Source: Clostridia bacterium
Lineage (GTDB): Bacteria; Bacillota; Clostridia; Oscillospirales; CAG-272
DNA length: 47,685 bases
Direction of reading: 5' to 3'
NCBI GenBank assembly: GCA_017462485.1
Contig: JAFTRA010000032.1
Location: 1 to 47,685, forward strand
The position numbers and the translations under genes were made by a program. This document shows, one piece after another, positions 1,262-17,706 of this stretch (the stretch's first letter is position 1; the number at the start of each line of letters is the position of its first letter). A model generated the notes under the pieces. The model saw only the letters and a list, made by a program, of their open reading frames with translations. It did not search any database and had not been told where the DNA came from.

Positions 1262-3097
1262 ATGTCAATTATCGAAACGCTCCGCGCAAAAGCCAATTCC
1301 CTGCCCGAAGCACCGGGTGTTTATATAATGAAGGATTCCTCGGAAAAAATCATATACGTCGGAAAATCAAAGAGACTTAAGTTCCGTGTGTCCAGCTATT
1401 TTTCTCAAAATCATACCTCGCCGAAAACCGCGAGAATGGTTAGCCTTGTCCGTGACTTCGACTATATAGTTTGCAAGACCGAAATAGAGGCTCTCACCCT
1501 CGAAAACGTTCTTATAAAGAAGCACTCTCCAAAGTATAACATAAAGCTAAAGGACGCAAAATCCTACCCTTATATTAAAATAACGAAGGACGAGTATCCG
1601 AAGCTTATCGTCACCCGTGAGAGAAAAAGTGACGGCGGCAAGTACTTCGGACCTTATAGCAGCGCCTCTGCCGCATACACAGCGCTTGAGACGGTCAAGA
1701 AAATTTTCTCTCTTCCCACCTGCAAGCGCACGTTCCCGAAGGACATAGGCAAAGAGCGCCCTTGCATATATCGCGATATGGGAAGATGCGTCGCACCCTG
1801 CGTAAAGGATGCGATAAGCGTGGAGGACTATAACAGCACCGTAAAGACAGCCGCACACGTGCTTGACGGAAACGTAAGCTCGACCTTAAGCTCGCTCACC
1901 GAGGAAATGATGAGAGCTGCCGAGGATATGAACTTTGAGCGTGCCGCCGCCTACAGAGACAGTATCGCCGCTTTAAAAAAGCTTGCGGAAAAGCAAAAGG
2001 TGGTTGCCGACGCAAAAATCAACAGAGACGTCTTCGCCCTTTACACCTCGGAAACCGAGGGCGTTCTCGCTACTCTCACGATTAGAGAGGGCTCTCTTGT
2101 CGGCAAGAATGAGTTTATGCTCTCTTCCGAGGCGCCGACAGCGCCCGAGGACGTGCTTAACCTTATTTTGAATTATTACGAGGGCGGCATATCAATACCA
2201 AAAGAGGTTATGATAGACTTCAAGGCAGAAGACGAGGACACCGAGCTGCTCTCGGAATATCTCACTCTCGTCGCAGGCAAAAAGGTCACGGTTCGCACGC
2301 CCGAGAGGGGCGATGGAAGAGCGCTTTGCGATATGGCTTACGAAAACGCAAAGGAAGCAGCAAGACAGTACAGACTTGACGGAGAACGTGAAAATAAAAG
2401 TCTCTCCCGTCTTGCGACTCTGCTCGGACTCGAGTTCCCACCCGAAAGAATCGAGGCATACGATATATCCAATATAGGCGACGAAAATATAGTAGCATCA
2501 ATGGTTGTATGCCTTGGTGGAAAAATGAAGAGAAGCGAATACAGGACCTTTAAAATAGCCACCACCGACGGCAGAGACGATTATGCTTCTATGCGTGAAG
2601 CGATAACCAGAAGGCTTTCTCATATAGGCGACGGCAAGGCATCGCTCGGTGAAAGACCTAATCTTATTTTACTTGACGGCGGTGAGGCTCACGTTAACGT
2701 AATAAAACCCATTCTCAAAAGAATGAATTTCGACATTCCCGTCTTTGGAATGGTTAAGGACGACTATCATAAAACCCGAGCAATAACCGACGGTGAAAGA
2801 GAGATTTCGATAGCAACAGAGATGAATGTGTACGCTTTTGTTTACAATATTCAAGAAGAAGCACACAGATTCGCCTATCTCAACTCGCAAAACGCAAAGC
2901 TTAAAAGCCTTACCCGTTCGTCACTTGAGAATATAAAGGGCATCGGCAAAAAGAAAGCGAAGCTTCTGCTTTCAAAAATGAGTCTTTCGGATTTGAAGAT
3001 AGCCGAATATGAAAAGCTCCTCGAAATCGACGGAATCAGCGAAAGAGATGCGAAGAACGTTTACGAATACTTTAGAGAAATAGCGAATCAAGAGTGA
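1262..3097 (+). CDS. uvrC: UvrABC excinuclease subunit C
   Basis: UvrC makes both incisions around a bulky DNA lesion in nucleotide excision repair after UvrB loading. The 611-residue product has the full architecture: an N-terminal GIY-YIG nuclease (GVYIM near 19-23, YVG near 32-34), a central UVR motif (about 200-235) that binds UvrB, the RNase H-like UvrC endonuclease domain (IEAYDISNIGDE, LLDGGEAH), and C-terminal helix-hairpin-helix repeats (IKGIGKKKA, EIDGISERDA). The ATG at 1262 has a strong AAAAGGAGG 5 nt upstream and gives the usual N-terminus; the upstream in-frame extension overlaps the hairpin at 1184-1213 and is rejected. rsmD follows 80 bp downstream. Confidence 0.97.
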   Translation: MSIIETLRAKANSLPEAPGVYIMKDSSEKIIYVGKSKRLKFRVSSYFSQNHTSPKTARMVSLVRDFDYIVCKTEIEALTLENVLIKKHSPKYNIKLKDAKSYPYIKITKDEYPKLIVTRERKSDGGKYFGPYSSASAAYTALETVKKIFSLPTCKRTFPKDIGKERPCIYRDMGRCVAPCVKDAISVEDYNSTVKTAAHVLDGNVSSTLSSLTEEMMRAAEDMNFERAAAYRDSIAALKKLAEKQKVVADAKINRDVFALYTSETEGVLATLTIREGSLVGKNEFMLSSEAPTAPEDVLNLILNYYEGGISIPKEVMIDFKAEDEDTELLSEYLTLVAGKKVTVRTPERGDGRALCDMAYENAKEAARQYRLDGERENKSLSRLATLLGLEFPPERIEAYDISNIGDENIVASMVVCLGGKMKRSEYRTFKIATTDGRDDYASMREAITRRLSHIGDGKASLGERPNLILLDGGEAHVNVIKPILKRMNFDIPVFGMVKDDYHKTRAITDGEREISIATEMNVYAFVYNIQEEAHRFAYLNSQNAKLKSLTRSSLENIKGIGKKKAKLLLSKMSLSDLKIAEYEKLLEIDGISERDAKNVYEYFREIANQE

Positions 3098-3177
3098 ATA
3101 ATATGACTTAGTTAGGTCTTGTTTTTCATCGACTTCGCCATCTATCGCACTTAAATACACATGAGAGGTACTATACC

Positions 3178-3738
3178 GTGTTAAAAATAATTACAGGAAG
3201 CGCCAAAGGAAAAATACTCAAAACACTTGAGGGAGAGGCTACGAGACCGACGTCCGAAAGAATAAAGGAAGCGGTATTTTCGTCTATCCAGTTTGATATC
3301 GAGGACCGTCGTGTGCTTGATATCTTTGCAGGCTGCGGCCAGCTCGGACTCGAAGCGCTATCGCGCGGAGCTGAAAGCTGTATGTTCGTTGACTCGTCGC
3401 GCGAGGCGATGGATATTGTAAAGGCGAACGTTTCTGCCACGGGCTTTAATTCAAAGTGCCGCTACCTCGTGAGCGATGCGAGAAACTATATAAGAAAAGC
3501 GTCAGGGCGAGAGGTCTTTGACCTTGTATTTATCGACCCGCCATACGCTCTCGAATGCTCTGCTGACATTATTCGTAGACTCGCCTCGGGGGGAATGCTT
3601 GCCGACGGAGCAATCGTGGTTTCCGAGAGCGGAACAGAGGTTATAAACCCCGACGATTTTCCCGAGTTCGAGGTAACGAAATCCCGTCAGTACGGCAAAA
3701 AAACCGCGATAAACATATTTCTCTACCACAAGCCGTAA
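3178..3738 (+). CDS. rsmD: 16S rRNA (guanine(966)-N(2))-methyltransferase RsmD
   Basis: RsmD methylates G966 of 16S rRNA using S-adenosylmethionine. The 186-residue length is typical. Visible motifs are the N-terminal GSAKGKIL...TRPTSERIKEAVFS region, the SAM-binding VLDIFAGCGQLGLEALSRGA (motif I) and the catalytic IDPPYAL (motif IV). The start is a GTG with AGAGGT about 9 nt upstream; no ATG is available. Neighbouring coaD 93 bp downstream is the usual partner of rsmD in Firmicutes, which supports both calls. Confidence 0.95.
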   Translation: MLKIITGSAKGKILKTLEGEATRPTSERIKEAVFSSIQFDIEDRRVLDIFAGCGQLGLEALSRGAESCMFVDSSREAMDIVKANVSATGFNSKCRYLVSDARNYIRKASGREVFDLVFIDPPYALECSADIIRRLASGGMLADGAIVVSESGTEVINPDDFPEFEVTKSRQYGKKTAINIFLYHKP

Positions 3739-3831
3739 TACGATTGGCTTAAGACACAAATTTAATTATTCGGGCTCTGTTTATCGCCCACGATTTAGAC
3801 GGCCGCCTATGGCGGCAGAATGGATAGAACT

Positions 3832-4314
3832 ATGAACGAAAAGAAAATCAACTCGGTAATCATTCCGGGCAGCTATGACCCCGTAACGCTCGGGCACGTT
3901 GATATAATAAAGCGCGCGGCTGAAAAATACGACGAAGTCTATGCCGTGGTCTTTATAAACCCAGATAAAAAATACACCTTTACGCTTGAGGAACGCGTAA
4001 AGATGCTTATGCTTGCGACAGACGAGCTTGACAACGTTCTCGTAAGCTACTCGAACGGTCTCGTTATCGACTATATGCGTGAGCACGAAATAGAGCTTAT
4101 CGTAAAGGGCTACCGCAACGACGTCGACCTCGAATATGAAAAACGCCAGGCAGAATGGAATCTTTATCACGGCGGCTATGAAACTGAGCTTTGGAAAGCT
4201 TCCCCCGAGCTTGAAGAAATCAGCTCAACCCTCGCAAGAGATAATATAAAAAACGATAAGAGTCTTCAAAGAATCTTACCTGCGAGCGTAATTGATTTTT
4301 TGAAAAACCGATAA
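3832..4314 (+). CDS. coaD: Phosphopantetheine adenylyltransferase CoaD
   Basis: CoaD transfers AMP from ATP to 4'-phosphopantetheine, the penultimate step of coenzyme A synthesis. The product keeps the nucleotidyltransferase signature PGSYDPVTLGH (T/HxGH) near the N-terminus and a YRND segment in the substrate pocket. The C-terminal ISSTLARDN stretch stands in for the usual ISSS.VRE motif and is somewhat divergent. Two ATGs compete: 3820 and 3832. The latter has GGATAG about 5 nt upstream and gives the family length (160 aa), so it is preferred without certainty. A perfect GCCGCC-TAT-GGCGGC palindrome at 3802-3816 sits just before the start and could occlude initiation. A terminator follows at 4408-4456. 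Confidence 0.93.
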   Translation: MNEKKINSVIIPGSYDPVTLGHVDIIKRAAEKYDEVYAVVFINPDKKYTFTLEERVKMLMLATDELDNVLVSYSNGLVIDYMREHEIELIVKGYRNDVDLEYEKRQAEWNLYHGGYETELWKASPELEEISSTLARDNIKNDKSLQRILPASVIDFLKNR

Positions 4315-4407
4315 GGCGAGGCTCTCTGAATTCGCCGCCCCCAATAAAATCACGGAATATTCATTTTAAAAACCCTCACAGCGTGGTGTCTCCGAAAATT
4401 AAAATAT

Positions 4408-4456
4408 AAGCGTTTTCCGTTTTATTCCAAATTGATTACGGCAAACGCTTTTTTAA
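4408..4456 (+). terminator. Intrinsic terminator after coaD
   Basis: AAGCGTTT (4408-4415) pairs with AAACGCTT (4443-4450), followed by TTTTTT. It ends the uvrC-rsmD-coaD direction and may also stop the convergent minus-strand unit less efficiently. Confidence 0.65.
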
Positions 4457-4457
4457 T

Positions 4458-5003
4458 TTATTGAGTTAAGGCTGACTGGTCGTCTTTGCTTTTTCTTTTT
4501 AAGAAATATCTTGTAAAGAAGATAACGATAGACGAAGCAGTTATGATTTCGTTGATAATGGCGGCGCTCGAACCGACACATATCGCATAAATTATCTGAG
4601 ATATGCAAACACCGAATGAAAGCAGCTTTGTTTTATTAGGATTTCTTTGCCAATATCCCAGACTTCCTAGTATGCAGGAAACAAGAGAGCATACGCTGTA
4701 TATGCTTTTCCAAGATATTATAACCGCAAAAACTCCGGCAACCATGAAAATCGGCAAAACCGCTCTGTTCTCTTCCTTTCCTTTGATAGCCATAATCAGA
4801 AACGTAATGCTGCGGCACGCTCCGACTATGGTAATCGCCATACCCGAGGTTGCGCCAATCATAAGAAAATGAGTTATCCATAAAATATCGGCGCATAGCT
4901 TTGCAAAAAGCAGGCGCTTTTTTGTTTTTTGCTGAAATATAACGAATCCGACACCAACAGCCAAAAATCCTATGCATTCGGCAATAATTTTTATATAATT
5001 CAT
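4458..5003 (-). CDS. YgjV-like (Imp-YgjV family) integral membrane protein
   Basis: The 181-residue protein is almost entirely hydrophobic, with about five or six predicted membrane helices separated by short basic loops, and a basic C-terminal tail (YFLKRKSKDD). Pairs of similar helices and the FQQKTKKRLLFAKL and GYWQRNPNKTKLL loops recall the YgjV inner-membrane family, whose function is unknown. Its ATG lies 1 nt after the stop of the upstream glycoside hydrolase-like gene, so the two are likely translated together. It could be a transporter or membrane partner for that enzyme, but nothing in the sequence proves a role. Confidence 0.7.
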   Translation of the reverse strand: MNYIKIIAECIGFLAVGVGFVIFQQKTKKRLLFAKLCADILWITHFLMIGATSGMAITIVGACRSITFLIMAIKGKEENRAVLPIFMVAGVFAVIISWKSIYSVCSLVSCILGSLGYWQRNPNKTKLLSFGVCISQIIYAICVGSSAAIINEIITASSIVIFFTRYFLKRKSKDDQSALTQ

Positions 5004-5004
5004 T

Positions 5005-6771
5005 TTATGCCTCTATTCTGACGTATTTTGAGGGAAGTATTTCTTTTCCTCTGTAAGCAGCAGTCTCTTTTCCAAAGTTTGCAACAATCTCAACGCCGTC
5101 CTCATATCTCGTTACACAGATGCCGCCATCAAGAGTTTTATAACTCTTTATAAACACCAGCTGTCTGTCACAAAGGGCCTCGTATTCCTTTGCGGAATCG
5201 TAAATCAGCCGAGCTGCCTCTGTAAGAGCTTCACGGCTTTCGGATGTAATATCTTCCTCACCCATCCAGTTATTGCTTATACCCGAAAATACGTTTTTCT
5301 TTGCGCTGAGGAACTTTGAATTTATGTATAGCGCTGACTTTCCACCCAAAAGAGCGAGAGTGGATTTAGCTTCATCTCCCTTTATTATAGCGTTAACTGT
5401 CGCTGATGAAACGTTATAAAGAACTATACCGTGATATATAAGCTCCATCATAGGAATTACCGCATCTACCATTTCATAGTCTTTCGGGAGGAATGAAAGA
5501 CGAGTTGAACGGAAACAGTTATAAAGCGAAAAATCAAGCTCACCGACAGAGAAATCTCTCATTCCCTCCGAGGAAAATCCGCCAAACTTCTCGGTATATA
5601 AGTTCATTATTTTACGAAGTATTTCGATTGCGCCGGAAAGCGTTACTCTGTGATTTTTGTCAAAGCAGGTATCGGGACGGCAGATGCTGAGGCAATCAAC
5701 GTAATGAAGTCCCGAGAATCCTAAACGCACAAGTTCCTTAACGTCACGCTCCGCATATCTTAGCTGTGTTACAGGGCACGCAGCATACGACGTACCGCCT
5801 CCCCAGTTTCCGTGGCTTCTTACCGAGCCGTCGGCATTTCTCGCAAGGTCATCTAAATTAAAGGTTTTTGCGATTTCGTAGTGGTCAGCGTGGTTGGTGT
5901 GGCAGCTTATTTTATATCCGAGCGACTTTACGTGCTCTATAGTCTTGATAAGCTCACTTTCACCGCCAAGCATCTCTTCTACAGGGAAAAGATCGGGCCA
6001 TCTTCCGTCATGTCCCTTAGCATTCCAGCCAACCAACGAAAGCTCTGCACCCTCTACTCCCTGCTCCTTCATCTTATCCGCAAGGAATCTTACGTCTGCA
6101 AACGTGCAGGCTACGTACATAGGGGGCTCGTTCTCTTCGGTCTGATGCAAAATTTGAGGCGGCACAGGCTTCCAACCCATACGTATTCTTATAAGCGGAT
6201 ATTTGCGGGCGTATTCAAGAGATTCTCTCTCTGCGCACTTGTCCCTAAGAGGTCTGATTTCACCCATTTCAAGACGGTAATTTCTCACCGCTCTCGCAAC
6301 GTCGTTATAATCGGCAGAAGCAGGCAGTGTGATAACTTTAAATACGATATCGTCGTACACGGGTTGACGGGCGGTTAAAATTTCCACGCAAATCTTGTAT
6401 TTTCCGTCAACGTACTCGCTCTCAAGCACATAAAGATAGGTGTTTTCTATCATTACAACGTACACCTCTTCAGCGTTTGCAACGGCAAAGATACTGAGAG
6501 AGGGATTGTCTATACGGATTTTTTCATTCATCGAGCGGGCGGCAAAGCGCACGAGAGCGGTTCCTGACGCCTTCTCGTCACCCGGGAGCAAATAATAGCC
6601 GTTATCTCCTGCCGACGTTTCAAATTGCGGAGCGGTAATTCTGAGCATTTTCTTATCCTTAAAGCTTTCAGCTCCGAGCGAAAAACGTCTTATTTTTTTA
6701 TCTTCCCTTTCAACGAATGCTAAAGCCTCGCCGTCGTCACAGCTTGCAAAAAACGAAAGTTTTTTCATCAT
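5005..6771 (-). CDS. DUF5696-like protein, putative TIM-barrel glycoside hydrolase
   Basis: A 588-residue predicted cytosolic protein without signal peptide. The N-terminal ~200 residues look like a beta-rich domain. The centre resembles the (beta/alpha)8 glycoside hydrolases assigned to DUF5696: LSLVGWNAKGHDG, a CHTNHADHY segment, GLHYVDCLSICRPDTCFD (candidate nucleophile Asp) and FSSEGMRDFSVGELDFSLYN (candidate acidic residues). A beta-rich C-terminal domain follows. The substrate is unknown. The ATG at 6771 is preferred because GGGAG lies about 8 nt upstream; the longer frame up to 6873 runs through the promoter. It is divergent from an AraC-type activator and coupled to a membrane gene, a typical sugar-utilisation layout. 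Confidence 0.75.
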   Translation of the reverse strand: MMKKLSFFASCDDGEALAFVEREDKKIRRFSLGAESFKDKKMLRITAPQFETSAGDNGYYLLPGDEKASGTALVRFAARSMNEKIRIDNPSLSIFAVANAEEVYVVMIENTYLYVLESEYVDGKYKICVEILTARQPVYDDIVFKVITLPASADYNDVARAVRNYRLEMGEIRPLRDKCAERESLEYARKYPLIRIRMGWKPVPPQILHQTEENEPPMYVACTFADVRFLADKMKEQGVEGAELSLVGWNAKGHDGRWPDLFPVEEMLGGESELIKTIEHVKSLGYKISCHTNHADHYEIAKTFNLDDLARNADGSVRSHGNWGGGTSYAACPVTQLRYAERDVKELVRLGFSGLHYVDCLSICRPDTCFDKNHRVTLSGAIEILRKIMNLYTEKFGGFSSEGMRDFSVGELDFSLYNCFRSTRLSFLPKDYEMVDAVIPMMELIYHGIVLYNVSSATVNAIIKGDEAKSTLALLGGKSALYINSKFLSAKKNVFSGISNNWMGEEDITSESREALTEAARLIYDSAKEYEALCDRQLVFIKSYKTLDGGICVTRYEDGVEIVANFGKETAAYRGKEILPSKYVRIEA

Positions 6772-13371: not shown

Positions 13372-14892
13372 ATGTTAAATCTCGCTGTAAGAAACACGAG
13401 TAAGCTCGTAAGAGAAAAATCCAAAAGCGAAAATGTTCGCCTCGGACGACTTTTCACTAAAAAGAACACCGCGCGTCTTATGGCAAGCATGGTGAAGCTC
13501 GACCCCGAGAAAACCGCCTATACGATTCTTGACCCGGGCGCAGGCACGGGAATCTTAAGCACTGCGGTGGTTGAGCATATATGCAAAAACGCTCCGAATT
13601 GCCGTCAGATATTCCTCACCTGCTATGAAAACGACGAGGACTTCCTTCCTATGCTTGAGGATAACCTTGAGCGTATAAGGAAAAAGTGCCGCCACGATTA
13701 TGACGTCAGGCTCTTTGTTACCGTATATCCCGAAAACTATCTCATAGACGTCAAGAATCATTATACCGTAACCTTCTTCGACACTATTGAGGACAAGTTT
13801 GATATAATCATATGCAACCCGCCGATAGACCTTATTGAGAAATCGAGCGATGAGGCAAAGAGCGTTGGTTGCGTTACTATGCTTAAGGTTTCGTCAGCGT
13901 TCCTCTTCCTTACGGTTGCGTCCGTTCACCTTGAGGCAAACGGTCAGCTCGTTATTATGCTTCCTACTACGGTTGCGAGCGCTTCCTCGCTTACCGCTAT
14001 AAGACGTGATATTGCGTCAAGACTTTCGATAAGGAGTATCCATCTTTTCGTTGGAAAACAGAAGAACGCCAAAAGAGCTATACCTCTTAAAAAATCGGTA
14101 ATTATTTCATATGAAAACTCCGAAGAAAAATCGGATATAAGCATCTCGACCTCAACCGACGACGGCTCCGAGGCAAAGCTTTCGAAGCTCCCCCCTCTTC
14201 CCTACGGCTTCGTTGTTGATAAGAATGACGGCTCGCTCACCCTCCCGAAGAATATAGAGGAGACGAAAATCGTAAAATACATAGGAGCCTTCCCCGAAAC
14301 GCTTTCCTCTCTCGGTATGAAAATGAGCACGGGTCTTGTTATAGACTCAAAATGCGCCGATATTCTCTATGATGAGGAAATTCCCGGAACCATTCCGGTT
14401 ATACGCCCCTCGTCTATGATAGGCGGCGGTATCAAGATACCTATGCCACGAGCGAAAAAGCAGTATATCATGCCGACCGAAACGGCAATCTTCCAGCGAA
14501 ACAAAAATATGATAATCATAAAGCGCGTTCCCGCAAAGAGTGACGACAGATTTATAAACTCAGCCGTTTATTTCGCAGGTCAGCGCCCGGCAAATCAGTA
14601 TATATCGACGCATAACAAGATAAACTTCATTGATATGAAGGATAGCAAAGAGGAAATGTGCGCAAGACTTGTTTTCGGCCTTTACGCTATTCTTAATTCG
14701 ACGATATATGACAGATACGTATCCATAGTCTCAAAGTCGAAGCAAATCAACTCAAAGGAAATGAGAGACCTCCCCCTTCCGCCAAGACATATAATTGAAA
14801 ATATGGGTATGCGCCTTATGTCCGTAAGAGACACGTCTGTTGCCGCTTGCGACGCTATCGTTAATCCCACCTTGCATATTAAGGTAAAATGA
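13372..14892 (+). CDS. Orphan N6-adenine-type DNA methyltransferase (Eco57I/TaqI-like)
   Basis: A 506-residue SAM-dependent methyltransferase. The N-terminal RLGRLFTKKNTARLMASM segment resembles the start of gamma-type N6-adenine methylases. Motif I is DPGAGTG (54-60), an acidic residue follows at YENDED, and motif IV is ICNPPI (148-152). Canonical enzymes have NPPY/F/W, so the final aromatic is replaced by Ile. Residues from about 300 to 490 look like a target-recognition domain (MKMSTGLVIDS, IPVIRPSSM, NKINFIDMKD, LYAILNSTIYDRYVSIVSKSKQINSKEMRDLPLP), as in Eco57I-like enzymes. No restriction endonuclease gene is nearby. AGAAAGGA precedes the ATG. It may be an orphan regulator of DNA methylation or an inactive relic. 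Confidence 0.8.
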   Translation: MLNLAVRNTSKLVREKSKSENVRLGRLFTKKNTARLMASMVKLDPEKTAYTILDPGAGTGILSTAVVEHICKNAPNCRQIFLTCYENDEDFLPMLEDNLERIRKKCRHDYDVRLFVTVYPENYLIDVKNHYTVTFFDTIEDKFDIIICNPPIDLIEKSSDEAKSVGCVTMLKVSSAFLFLTVASVHLEANGQLVIMLPTTVASASSLTAIRRDIASRLSIRSIHLFVGKQKNAKRAIPLKKSVIISYENSEEKSDISISTSTDDGSEAKLSKLPPLPYGFVVDKNDGSLTLPKNIEETKIVKYIGAFPETLSSLGMKMSTGLVIDSKCADILYDEEIPGTIPVIRPSSMIGGGIKIPMPRAKKQYIMPTETAIFQRNKNMIIIKRVPAKSDDRFINSAVYFAGQRPANQYISTHNKINFIDMKDSKEEMCARLVFGLYAILNSTIYDRYVSIVSKSKQINSKEMRDLPLPPRHIIENMGMRLMSVRDTSVAACDAIVNPTLHIKVK

Positions 14893-14999
14893 CTTTTTCC
14901 AAAGCATATCAGGGCTAGCTCAAATACGTATTGGGCTAGCCTATTTGTATAACACCCCACCAAAATGCAAGCTCATAATTAAAGAAAGGAGAGCTCAAT

Positions 15000-17573
15000 A
15001 TGAAACGCGCCGTTATAGGAATAGTTGCGCACGTCGATGCGGGAAAGACAACGCTTTCAGAGGCTATGCTATACGTATCCGGCTCAAGAGAAAAGCTCGG
15101 AAGAGTTGATAAAAGAGATTCCTTTCTTGATACGCACGATGTCGAGCGAGAGCGAGGAATAACGGTATTTTCAAAGCAAGCCGTTATGAAGATAGGCTCG
15201 ACAGAGCTGACGTTAATTGACACGCCCGGCCACGTTGACTTCTCCTCTGAAACCGAGCGCTCGCTTTCCATACAGGACTATTCCGTTCTTGTAGTAAGCG
15301 CCCCGGAGGGCATAACGCCCCACACTATGACGCTCTATCACCTTATTTCAAAAAGGAAGATACCAACCTTTATTTTCGTCAACAAGACTGATATTGCCGA
15401 CAGAAAAAGGCGAGATATCCTCGACGAATTAAAAAGAGCCTTCGGCACGGGAGTCGTGGATTTTAACCTTGAAAAAGAGGACTTGCCGCGCTTTCTTGAG
15501 GAATGTGCCGCTGCCGACGAAAATCTTATGGAGGACTTCTTTGAGAAAGGTATTATCCCGGAAGAAAAAATTGCGCTCTCCATTAAAAAAAGACGCATAA
15601 TTCCCGCATTTTTCGGCTCTGCTCTTAAGTGCGAAAAAATAGATATTTTCCTTTCCGCAATTGACAGATATACGTTAAAAAAACGCTATTCCGACACGCT
15701 TTTGGGAGCAAAGGTTTACAAAATTGGCACAGACCCCTCTGGCGCAAGGCTTACCTATCTCAAGGTAACGGGCGGTAAAATTTCGATTAAGGACACCATA
15801 AATTACGTAGGAGCGGGTGGCAAGCTCTTTTCCGAAAAGGTAGAGGGCATAAGGCTCTATTCCGCAGATAAATTCAAGGCGCTGAAATGTGCCGAGGCAG
15901 GAATGACCGTAGCTCTGACAGGACTCACGAAAACCTCGGCGGGTCTTGGTATAGGCACGGAATGTGAAAGCAGCACCACTCTTGAGACTCCGCTCGACTA
16001 TAAAATGACGTTTCTTAACAAAGACTGCGACGTTTACCGTGCGTATCTTGATATCGCTCCTCTTGCCGAGGAGGACCCTGCTCTTCACTTGCGCTATGAC
16101 AGCGCCAGCTGTGAAATAAAAGTAAAGCTTATGGGTGAGATACAGACGGAAGTCCTCACCCGTGTGATAAAAGACCGCTTTGGATATGACGTTTCCTTTG
16201 ACGACGGCTCGATTTTATATAAGGAAACGATTTCAGAAAAGGTGTTCGGTGCGGGGCATTTCGAGCCCCTTATGCACTATGCAGAGGTACGACTTCGCCT
16301 TGAGCCGCTTCCATATGGCTCAGGACTTGTTTTCACCTCTGACTGCCCGAGCGACAGACTTAAAACCAACTGGCAAAGGCTTATACTCTCTCACCTTGAG
16401 GAAAGAGAGCATAAGGGGACACTCACCGGCTCTCCAATAACCGATATGAAAATTACTCTTATAACCGGAAGAGCCCACCCAAAGCACACCGAGGGCGGAG
16501 ATTTCAGAGAAGCGACATACCGCGCCTTAAGGCAAGGACTTATGAAGGCGGATATTATTCTGCTTGAGCCGATTTTCGATTTTGTAATCGAGCTTCCGCA
16601 GGATATGCTCGGCAGAGCTATGACGGATATATCATCTATGTCGGGCGAATATTCACCGCCGGAATTTACCGAAAGCACCGCAAGGCTTTCGGGTACCTGT
16701 CCCGTATCCACTATGAGAGGCTACGCCGGGGAGCTTCGCTCTTATACCAGGGGCGCAGGAAAGCTTACGGTGACCTCAGGAGGCTACGCCCCCTGCCACA
16801 ACGCAGAAGAGGTTATTGCCGCATTCGGTTATTCCCCAGAGCTTGATTCGTCGATTACTGCAGACTCGGTATTCTGCAAGGGCGGCTCCGGGTACTCTGT
16901 TCCCTGGTATGAGTCCGACGAAAAGATGCACACCGAAAATCCCGAAGAGGTACGCACTCCCACAGCCGACGAGCATATGCAAAGAAGAGTCTCTTCCTCG
17001 TATAAGGGTACTATCGACGAGGATAAGGAGCTTATGAAAATTTTCGAGAGCACCTACGGAAAGATAAAGAGACGCATCGCTCCAGAAAAGCGCGAAAATT
17101 CAGTCCCCGAGGAAAAGACGAGTCATAAGCGGTCAAAGCCTCGCGACAATGGCGAGGAATATATAATAGTTGACGGATACAATCTGATTTTCGCTTGGGA
17201 CAGACTAAAGAAGCTTGCCGCAGCCGAGCTTGCCCACGCAAGAGATACGCTCATTCACATAATGTCAAATTACCGCAGCTTTAAAAAATGCAACCTTATT
17301 CTCGTTTTTGATGCCTACAAGCGCCGCGATAACGACGGAGCTGTTGAGGAATGCGGTGGAATTACTGTGGTCTATACAAAGGAAAGGCAAACCGCAGATG
17401 CTTACATTGAGCGCGCGGCATACGACCTTGCTCCGAAAAACACTGTCAAGGTCGTCACCTCGGATTACGAGGAGCAGCTGGTTATTCTCGGAGTCGGCGG
17501 AATAAGAGTTCCGGCAAGGGAATTCATCGAAGAGGTTGAAGCTGTTACCAATCTTGAGCTTTACGGTATTTAG
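15000..17573 (+). CDS. Tet(M)/EF-G-like ribosomal GTPase fused to a Rae1/YacP-type NYN endonuclease domain
   Basis: An 857-residue fusion protein. Residues 1 to about 640 form a translational GTPase of the ribosomal protection type: G1 AHVDAGKTT (10-18), RGIT switch I (52-55), G3 DTPGH (74-78), G4 NKTD (128-131), then the domain II-V layout with LSGTCPVSTMRGYAGELRSYTRG in domain V. A charged linker (about 640-718) leads to a C-terminal domain (719-857) that matches YacP/Rae1: EEYIIVDGYNLIFAWDRLKKL, LVFDAY, TADAYIE and TSDYEEQ, with the expected acidic residues (D725, D771, D800, D822). In B. subtilis Rae1 is a separate ribosome-associated nuclease that cuts mRNA in the A site. The fusion suggests GTPase-guided delivery of the nuclease. 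GAAAGGAG precedes the ATG. Tetracycline resistance should not be assumed. Confidence 0.9.
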   Translation: MKRAVIGIVAHVDAGKTTLSEAMLYVSGSREKLGRVDKRDSFLDTHDVERERGITVFSKQAVMKIGSTELTLIDTPGHVDFSSETERSLSIQDYSVLVVSAPEGITPHTMTLYHLISKRKIPTFIFVNKTDIADRKRRDILDELKRAFGTGVVDFNLEKEDLPRFLEECAAADENLMEDFFEKGIIPEEKIALSIKKRRIIPAFFGSALKCEKIDIFLSAIDRYTLKKRYSDTLLGAKVYKIGTDPSGARLTYLKVTGGKISIKDTINYVGAGGKLFSEKVEGIRLYSADKFKALKCAEAGMTVALTGLTKTSAGLGIGTECESSTTLETPLDYKMTFLNKDCDVYRAYLDIAPLAEEDPALHLRYDSASCEIKVKLMGEIQTEVLTRVIKDRFGYDVSFDDGSILYKETISEKVFGAGHFEPLMHYAEVRLRLEPLPYGSGLVFTSDCPSDRLKTNWQRLILSHLEEREHKGTLTGSPITDMKITLITGRAHPKHTEGGDFREATYRALRQGLMKADIILLEPIFDFVIELPQDMLGRAMTDISSMSGEYSPPEFTESTARLSGTCPVSTMRGYAGELRSYTRGAGKLTVTSGGYAPCHNAEEVIAAFGYSPELDSSITADSVFCKGGSGYSVPWYESDEKMHTENPEEVRTPTADEHMQRRVSSSYKGTIDEDKELMKIFESTYGKIKRRIAPEKRENSVPEEKTSHKRSKPRDNGEEYIIVDGYNLIFAWDRLKKLAAAELAHARDTLIHIMSNYRSFKKCNLILVFDAYKRRDNDGAVEECGGITVVYTKERQTADAYIERAAYDLAPKNTVKVVTSDYEEQLVILGVGGIRVPAREFIEEVEAVTNLELYGI

Positions 17574-17673
17574 CCAATATCAACAAGCCTTACGACGATA
17601 AATTTAAGCGTCTTTCGTCGTACTAACCCTTGTAAACTTTAAGTAAAATCCATATAACAAACCCTACCCTGTG

Positions 17674-17706
17674 GGCTCGCAATTTTAAAAAGTTGCGAGC
17701 CTTTTT
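17674..17706 (+). terminator. Terminator after the GTPase-NYN fusion gene
   Basis: GGCTCGCAA and TTGCGAGCC form a perfect 9-bp stem followed by TTTTT. Confidence 0.85.

Follow-up and report, generated by a model that had tools for sequence, protein, structure and literature searches.

How bacterial nucleases reach an mRNA within the ribosome, and what selects a stalled ribosome for cutting, is an open question. It is raised anew by a gene at 15000..17573 on the forward strand of contig JAFTRA010000032.1 from a Clostridia bacterium (assembly GCA_017462485.1), a stretch of 47,685 nucleotides that was analysed as a whole and is called here the window. The gene encodes a protein of 857 residues in which a GTPase of the EF-G/Tet type is followed by an NYN endonuclease domain of the YacP/Rae1 type. 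Rae1 is described in PMC10100781 and PMC12320835 as a translation-dependent endonuclease attacking mRNA in the A site. What would such a nuclease do on the same polypeptide as a translational GTPase?

The combination has been described before by sequence, which answers the question left by the preliminary description of this DNA as to whether it had been characterised. Atkinson 2015 (PMC4342817) reports that in ten Clostridiales species Tet proteins have gained an RNase domain of the YacP-like NYN type; either a new antibiotic-resistance mechanism or cleavage of rRNA is proposed there. YacP was described as Rae1 later, in 2017, according to a reference in PMC10100781. No other description of the fusion was found in the literature searched, outside which the main Rae1 papers lay; with the same limit, no replacement of Rae1 on a GTPase outside tet(M)/tet(O) was found. 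The present analysis adds to Atkinson 2015 the replacement of yacP, the separate clade of the GTPase, the motif in the linker and the C-terminal loss in the NYN domain.

The reading frame is single and unbroken, starts with ATG and spans 857 codons, with a site of ribosome-binding type (AAAGGAG) just upstream. Residues 5-225 (15012..15674) form the G domain (Pfam GTP_EFTU, E 1.3e-46), with the motifs G1, switch I, G3, G4 and G5 starting at residues 10 (AHVDAGKT), 50 (RERGIT), 74 (DTPGH), 128 (NKTD) and 206 (GSALK). Pfam, the alignment and an AlphaFold model assign EF-G-like domains II-V to residues 226-601 (15675..16802). Within them EFG_IV matches residues 404-517 and EFG_C residues 521-601, EFG_III and EF-G_D2 match only below their own cut-offs, domains II and III being weak by sequence, and the alignment locates two loops at the tip of domain IV, GHFEPLMHYAEV (residues 419-430) and GRAHPKHTEGGDFREA (490-505). 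A conserved tail with the motif SVFC..G.G..V.W..MH (residues 602-650; 16803..16949) leads to a charged and mostly disordered linker (residues 651-719; 16950..17156), which holds the helix motif DKELMKIFESTYGKIKRR (helix 672-686). The YacP/Rae1 NYN domain closes the protein (residues 722-850; 17163..17549): NYN_YacP matches there at E 6.2e-44 with 150.3 bits, against a Pfam cut-off of 24.6, and the same part matches YacP of Bacillus subtilis (PDB 5mq8/5mq9) at E 2e-23. Its motifs VDGYN, VFDAY, TADAY and TSDYEE start at residues 724, 769, 798 and 820 and contain D725, D771, D800 and D822, which, as members of the NYN family have them, are presumably the catalytic residues.

The AlphaFold2 model, built with 67 sequences, has a mean predicted local distance difference test score of 88.1. 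The GTPase and NYN parts are mostly confident, and the linker is disordered at residues 653-671 and 690-713, which flank the helix 672-686. The 50 rows shown by a Foldseek search with this model are all EF-G/EF-2 types, which confirms the EF-G fold for the GTPase half only; the NYN fold therefore rests on sequence and model confidence. Since the model has a predicted template modelling score of 0.65 and comes with no inter-domain error, the mutual placement of NYN domain and GTPase is not read from it.

The fusion is no chance event: in a score ranking that favours full-length fusions, the best 80 of the related loci from named genomes, which number at least 590, all align through the NYN domain, with the query ending at residues 837-857. 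Judged from its sequence, one polypeptide is thus an EF-G/Tet-type GTPase with a Rae1/YacP NYN domain. This confirms the observation made in the preliminary description, whose calls for both domains, identification of the C-terminal domain as Rae1/YacP and positions of D725 and D800 all agree with the searches. Its term "full" for the NYN domain does not hold, as its match to the 166-position Pfam model reaches only position 131, before the C-terminal segment that free-standing YacP has.

The fusion and the free-standing yacP gene

In a class sample of 243 genomes, in which fusions were identified by whole-protein match, NYN_YacP occurs in 161. The fusion is present in 89 genomes (57 genera), a free-standing yacP in 72 and neither in 82. 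It had been suspected from the start that genomes with the fusion might lack a stand-alone yacP, and this proved to be so: both occur together in 0 of the 89, where about 26 genomes with both would be expected under independence (Fisher p 2e-18, relatedness being ignored), and the genome of the window, which is 98% complete, has a single NYN_YacP, namely the fusion. The 72 free-standing genomes are the difference between 161 and 89; seven of them were looked up separately, and their genes, encoding 160-196 residues, were all free-standing. Genomes with two matches are three with second hits below the cut-off, one with an equal-score pair on two contigs and one with a gene split over two contigs. 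The genera g288, g293 and g342 each have fusion-only and free-standing-only species side by side. In a wider sample of the phylum, NYN_YacP was found in 208 of 398 genomes at E 0.001 (205 above the cut-off), with at least 19 fusion-sized frames among the matches listed; the only two genomes with two matches there have, respectively, a pair on two contigs and a split gene.

Genes that are split or interrupted (G436, G618, G573, G452) or cut by a contig end (G555, G539, G568, G461) were counted as fused. One of them, at 2973-5694 on the minus strand of L153 in a single-contig genome (G573), is broken in frame by a single TAG that falls between residues ~269 and 274 and may reflect a pseudogene, an error or recoding. 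In L068 (G618) and L069 (G436), the GTPase and the NYN domain lie in two overlapping frames with differing break points, which may be sequencing errors or frameshifts.

The usual place of the free-standing gene tells what may have happened to it. Both rlmB and sigH lie within 1.5 kb of yacP at 43 of 49 free-standing loci, and a genome without the fusion (G443) has the order mrnC-rlmB-yacP-sigH. The gene rlmB was looked up in 13 genomes, and the six fusion genomes in which it lies together with sigH are informative: an intact yacP between the two genes was found in none of them. Five of them, G414, G502 and the G443 congeners G506, G557 and G591, have the sigH match 90-283 bp after the rlmB match; the slot of G502 gave weak YacP similarity in one search (E down to 0.001 among the matches listed) and none in another. 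The sixth genome, G418, a further fusion-bearing congener of G443, has a decayed yacP in its rlmB-sigH gap of 609 bp (L274, 2217-2826). One frame of this relic matches residues 48-143 (46% identity, E 1e-16) and a second matches residues 125-168 (64% identity, E 2e-13), no frame is intact and the first 47 residues are unmatched; when the slot was shuffled, 0 of 100 controls gave a match at E 10. No sigH was found in the stretch fetched around rlmB in G440, G433, G592, G605 and G378, and G000 has only a weak sigma match, on the opposite side of rlmB. The free-standing yacP of G440 lies ~13 kb from rlmB, so the order rlmB-yacP-sigH is not universal. In the genome of the window, no NYN match was found beside rlmB. 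Judging by these gene contents, the fusion seems to have replaced free-standing yacP in many Clostridia.

Proposed function and its alternatives

The fusion is probably a GTPase-borne Rae1, which replaced the free Rae1 of other Bacillota and cuts mRNA on stalled ribosomes. The GTPase module, by means of its G domain, domain IV tip and conserved tail, would recruit the protein to ribosomes with a vacant or blocked A site and would release after GTP hydrolysis. The tethered NYN domain, now able to reach the A site or else an adjacent ribosome, could then cut the mRNA, and the cut would feed decay or ribosome rescue. At the level of sequences, the architecture, the conservation of the nuclease and GTPase residues and the single-copy replacement of yacP are established. 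Because this replacement is one for one and the aspartates are kept, the fused domain is argued to do the job of Rae1, and since the G motifs and the EF-G-like layout are also kept, ribosome-dependent binding is the natural expectation. A ribosome-dependent GTPase activity and an A-site nuclease activity would both follow by analogy, while the order of events, their trigger and a control of cutting by GTP hydrolysis are pure inference. A more specific version is offered tentatively, with rather more doubt than belief: a "clear and cut" factor, in which the GTPase would check or clear the stalled A site and hand it over to the tethered endonuclease, this GTP-controlled cleavage having displaced free Rae1.

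Several points weigh against a GTPase-borne Rae1. We found no experiment in which a fusion of this kind had been assayed for ribosome binding or for GTPase or nuclease activity. The mutual exclusion of fusion and yacP is owed partly to common descent, and in G506, G557 and G591 the fusion is accompanied by a second NYN_YacP match of 21 bits, under the cut-off of 24.6. The 82 genomes without NYN_YacP, a third of the class sample, imply that the function is dispensable. The free-standing gene of G593 (160 residues, outside the alignment) matches the model only up to position 146, so the loss of the C-terminal segment discussed below is not strictly confined to fusions. A single A site, moreover, should not accommodate an EF-G-like domain IV and a Rae1 domain at once; as the two would compete for it, their joint action would have to be sequential or take place on two ribosomes. 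An unfused form of the GTPase is found in 16 genomes of the class sample (two via partial matches), 10 of them with a free-standing NYN_YacP and 6 without any; by its presence in these six, the GTPase is credited with some role apart from Rae1. Finally, of the 72 genomes that have Rae1 as a free-standing gene, 62 show no GTPase of this type at E 1e-75.

The last two counts, in which the modules occur apart, favour the idea of two independent activities, that is, a GTPase acting alone and an ordinary Rae1, with the fusion only tying together their expression and ribosome localisation. A long and mostly disordered linker would fit this well. We nevertheless regard this explanation as unlikely, given the presence of the fusion in 57 genera, a conserved helix motif within the linker and a C-terminal loss of the NYN domain that is found almost exclusively in fused forms. 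The linker measures 60-111 residues (median 69), of which 37% are charged, and its motif reads D.EL..IFERTYG in most fusions and, diverged, EEVDKILN.TYYANQGKK in others. Of 63 rows, 46 agree with a simple pattern written for the motif; in an alignment of 67 fusions, conservation is at least 90% at both E677 and I681.

The C-terminal loss was counted, like the motifs, in rows from available loci, mostly picked by score and not drawn at random. The TSD motif is followed by 63-72 residues in all 48 measurable aligned free-standing rows; among 83 fused rows, by contrast, 35-47 residues follow in 38, 52-62 in 20 and at least 63 in 25, the window protein having 35. That a segment present in the aligned free-standing domains is missing from 38 of the 83 fused ones, nearly half, suggests that part of the docking of the NYN domain may now be supplied by the GTPase or by the linker helix. 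The presumed active site is untouched by this shortening: the acidic residues, whose loss in relatives would have told against a nuclease, are present wherever a fused row extends over them (D725 and D771 in 84/84, D800 and D822 in 83/83) and likewise in the free-standing rows (49/49, 49/49, 49/49 and 48/48).

A tree of the NYN domains (85 fused, 49 free-standing) places 84 fused rows and one free-standing row on one side with support 98/99, and a single clade of all fused domains is not rejected (p 0.31). A second fusion event (G581/L156) was considered and not retained, its support being weak (92/50) and its branch long. The free-standing row is a gene of G592 (L046, 1486-2004, minus strand) that resembles the fused domains and starts with MSSEYLLVDGYNIIFAWPELKEL; its genome also has an unfused GTPase, and rlmB and sigH are not nearby. 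It falls within the fused clade in the free tree (99/89) and might possibly be a fused domain that split off. Such a fission remains a lead, as the fused rows forming a clade without it are not rejected (p 0.31).

Less probable still is an antibiotic-response factor, as proposed in Atkinson 2015 (PMC4342817): a Tet-like protection protein would clear the drug from the decoding site and an RNase would act on rRNA or mRNA. The protein does resemble TetM and TetO, and the NCBIfam model tet_protect matches residues 6-594, yet with 363.5 bits against a cut-off of 775. Scores under the other tetracycline models are likewise far below their cut-offs (M/W/O/S 235.2 against 1100, M 200.6 against 1420, Q 239.7 against 1425, Otr(A) 269.4 against 900), and identity to proteins of the tet(M)/tet(O) type is ~27-28% over residues 1-598. 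A quick tree was built from 63 fused rows, 17 unfused close relatives, 17 rows of the Tet type and 7 of the EF-G type. In it, the fused proteins and their unfused relatives form one branch (support 100), outside the group of tet(M), tet(O), here from plasmids, and the 15 other Tet-type rows (support 95). In the alignment, fused proteins and unfused relatives share the tip loops GHFEPLRHYAEVHL and GRAHxKHTEGGDFRQA, which are unlike those of Tet and EF-G, and the tail SVFCxHGxGFxVxW...MH, which is found in none of the aligned Tet and EF-G rows. Loop III is as long as that of tet(M), a point in favour of resistance, but reads KHTEGGDF where tet(M) has SPVSTPADF, and the C-terminal tail differs as well. 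Substitutions in loop III of Tet(M) can be tolerated, as PMC4750697 reports, so the protein may still have an effect on tetracycline despite these differences.

Two further lines of evidence come from the genetic context. Two fusion genes, from Agathobacter rectalis (L033, annotated as a TetM/TetW/TetO/TetS family tetracycline resistance protein) and Monoglobus (L032), lie on large plasmid records, as would suit a resistance gene, though both records are typed non-mobilizable. Against it, the neighbours in the window are ordinary, with pheS and pheT a few kb away, and across 61 loci of relatives the largest clusters of neighbouring genes, with self-overlaps of the gene excluded, cover 15 and 9 loci, at mixed positions on either side and strand. 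The one-for-one replacement of a widespread RNase also speaks against a resistance factor. Tetracycline resistance by the fusion is thus unsupported by the scores, loops and context, and the GTPase is best placed in its own subfamily, a relative of Tet that does not belong to the clade of tet(M) and tet(O). A factor of anti-phage or toxin-like kind, which would cut ribosome-bound mRNA when called for and so shut off translation, finds a parallel in the RelE toxin, which likewise cleaves A-site mRNA according to PMC5224514, and is nonetheless very improbable in view of 0 matches among 5027 defence models, the lack of a strongly recurrent neighbour in the 61 loci and the single-copy replacement of a widespread gene. 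The preliminary description had read the protein as a ribosomal protection-type GTPase that may enter stalled ribosomes and then cut mRNA; of this interpretation, the domains, the Rae1 identity, the acidic residues and the absence of yacP stand, entry into stalled ribosomes and A-site cleavage are presumed, and the wording "ribosomal protection-type" is not supported.

Fused GTPases are compatible with one clade in a clade test. The quick tree had placed the unfused protein of L. salivarius within them, as if it had lost its NYN domain, and this idea was dropped because a constrained tree holding the 63 fused rows together had the better likelihood. Among individual relatives, the fused protein of Monoglobus (WP_320690501.1) is 47.9% identical over residues 1-849, and the unfused proteins of L. 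salivarius (e.g., WP_324177469.1) are 42-44% identical over residues 1-646. The unfused sister GTPases (L137-L151, L152, L173) have 632-687 residues and the same tip loops and tail, and one of those from L. salivarius lies close to an rpsN gene on a plasmid of 248 kb.

For the question posed at the outset, a GTPase-borne version of the A-site endonuclease of B. subtilis would make access to mRNA testable with one protein and point mutants. A caution also follows for annotation: members of this subfamily are labelled as tetracycline resistance in some records (Agathobacter rectalis, L. salivarius), and the window protein scores under the curated cut-offs.

Surroundings of the gene and known systems

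The gene is flanked by terminator-like hairpins on both sides, so it may stand as a transcription unit of its own. The upstream one (14912..14942, forward strand, 12 bp stem; shuffle z -1.98, which is weak) carries the repeat GGGCTAGC and could be either the terminator of the preceding gene or a leader structure. The downstream one (17673..17702, forward strand) has a stem of 13 bp and a T-rich tail. The region has six terminator-like sites, against 3.4 expected from shuffles, and a search for promoter-like sites ahead of the fusion gene found none. Upstream of the first hairpin, at 13372-14892, lies a gene resembling N6-adenine methyltransferases, with weak matches to Eco57I and N6_Mtase.

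Known systems close to it include the Clostridial Tet-NYN proteins of Atkinson 2015, which that paper (PMC4342817) counts in ten species and calls Tet. They have the same architecture and taxonomic range as the window protein, whose relatives are likewise from Clostridia and which in all likelihood belongs to this kind. The NCBI name "translation factor GTPase family protein" is given both to the Monoglobus form, which is fused like the window protein, and to the L. salivarius form, which is without an NYN domain, and carries no function. With tet(M) and tet(O), the GTPase half shares the EF-G-like layout and the G motifs; it differs from them in its separate clade, other tip loops, SVFC...MH tail, additional NYN domain and scores below the cut-offs.

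The other half is best compared with Rae1/YacP of B. subtilis (PF05991), to which it aligns over residues 3-132 with the motifs VDGYN, VFDA, TAD and TSD in common. Free-standing Rae1/YacP proteins have ~170 residues and an rlmB-yacP-sigH context, whereas the form in the window is fused and found in another context. Compared with the B. subtilis protein in particular, its NYN domain sits behind a GTPase, away from mrnC-rlmB-yacP-sigH, and does without the C-terminal segment.

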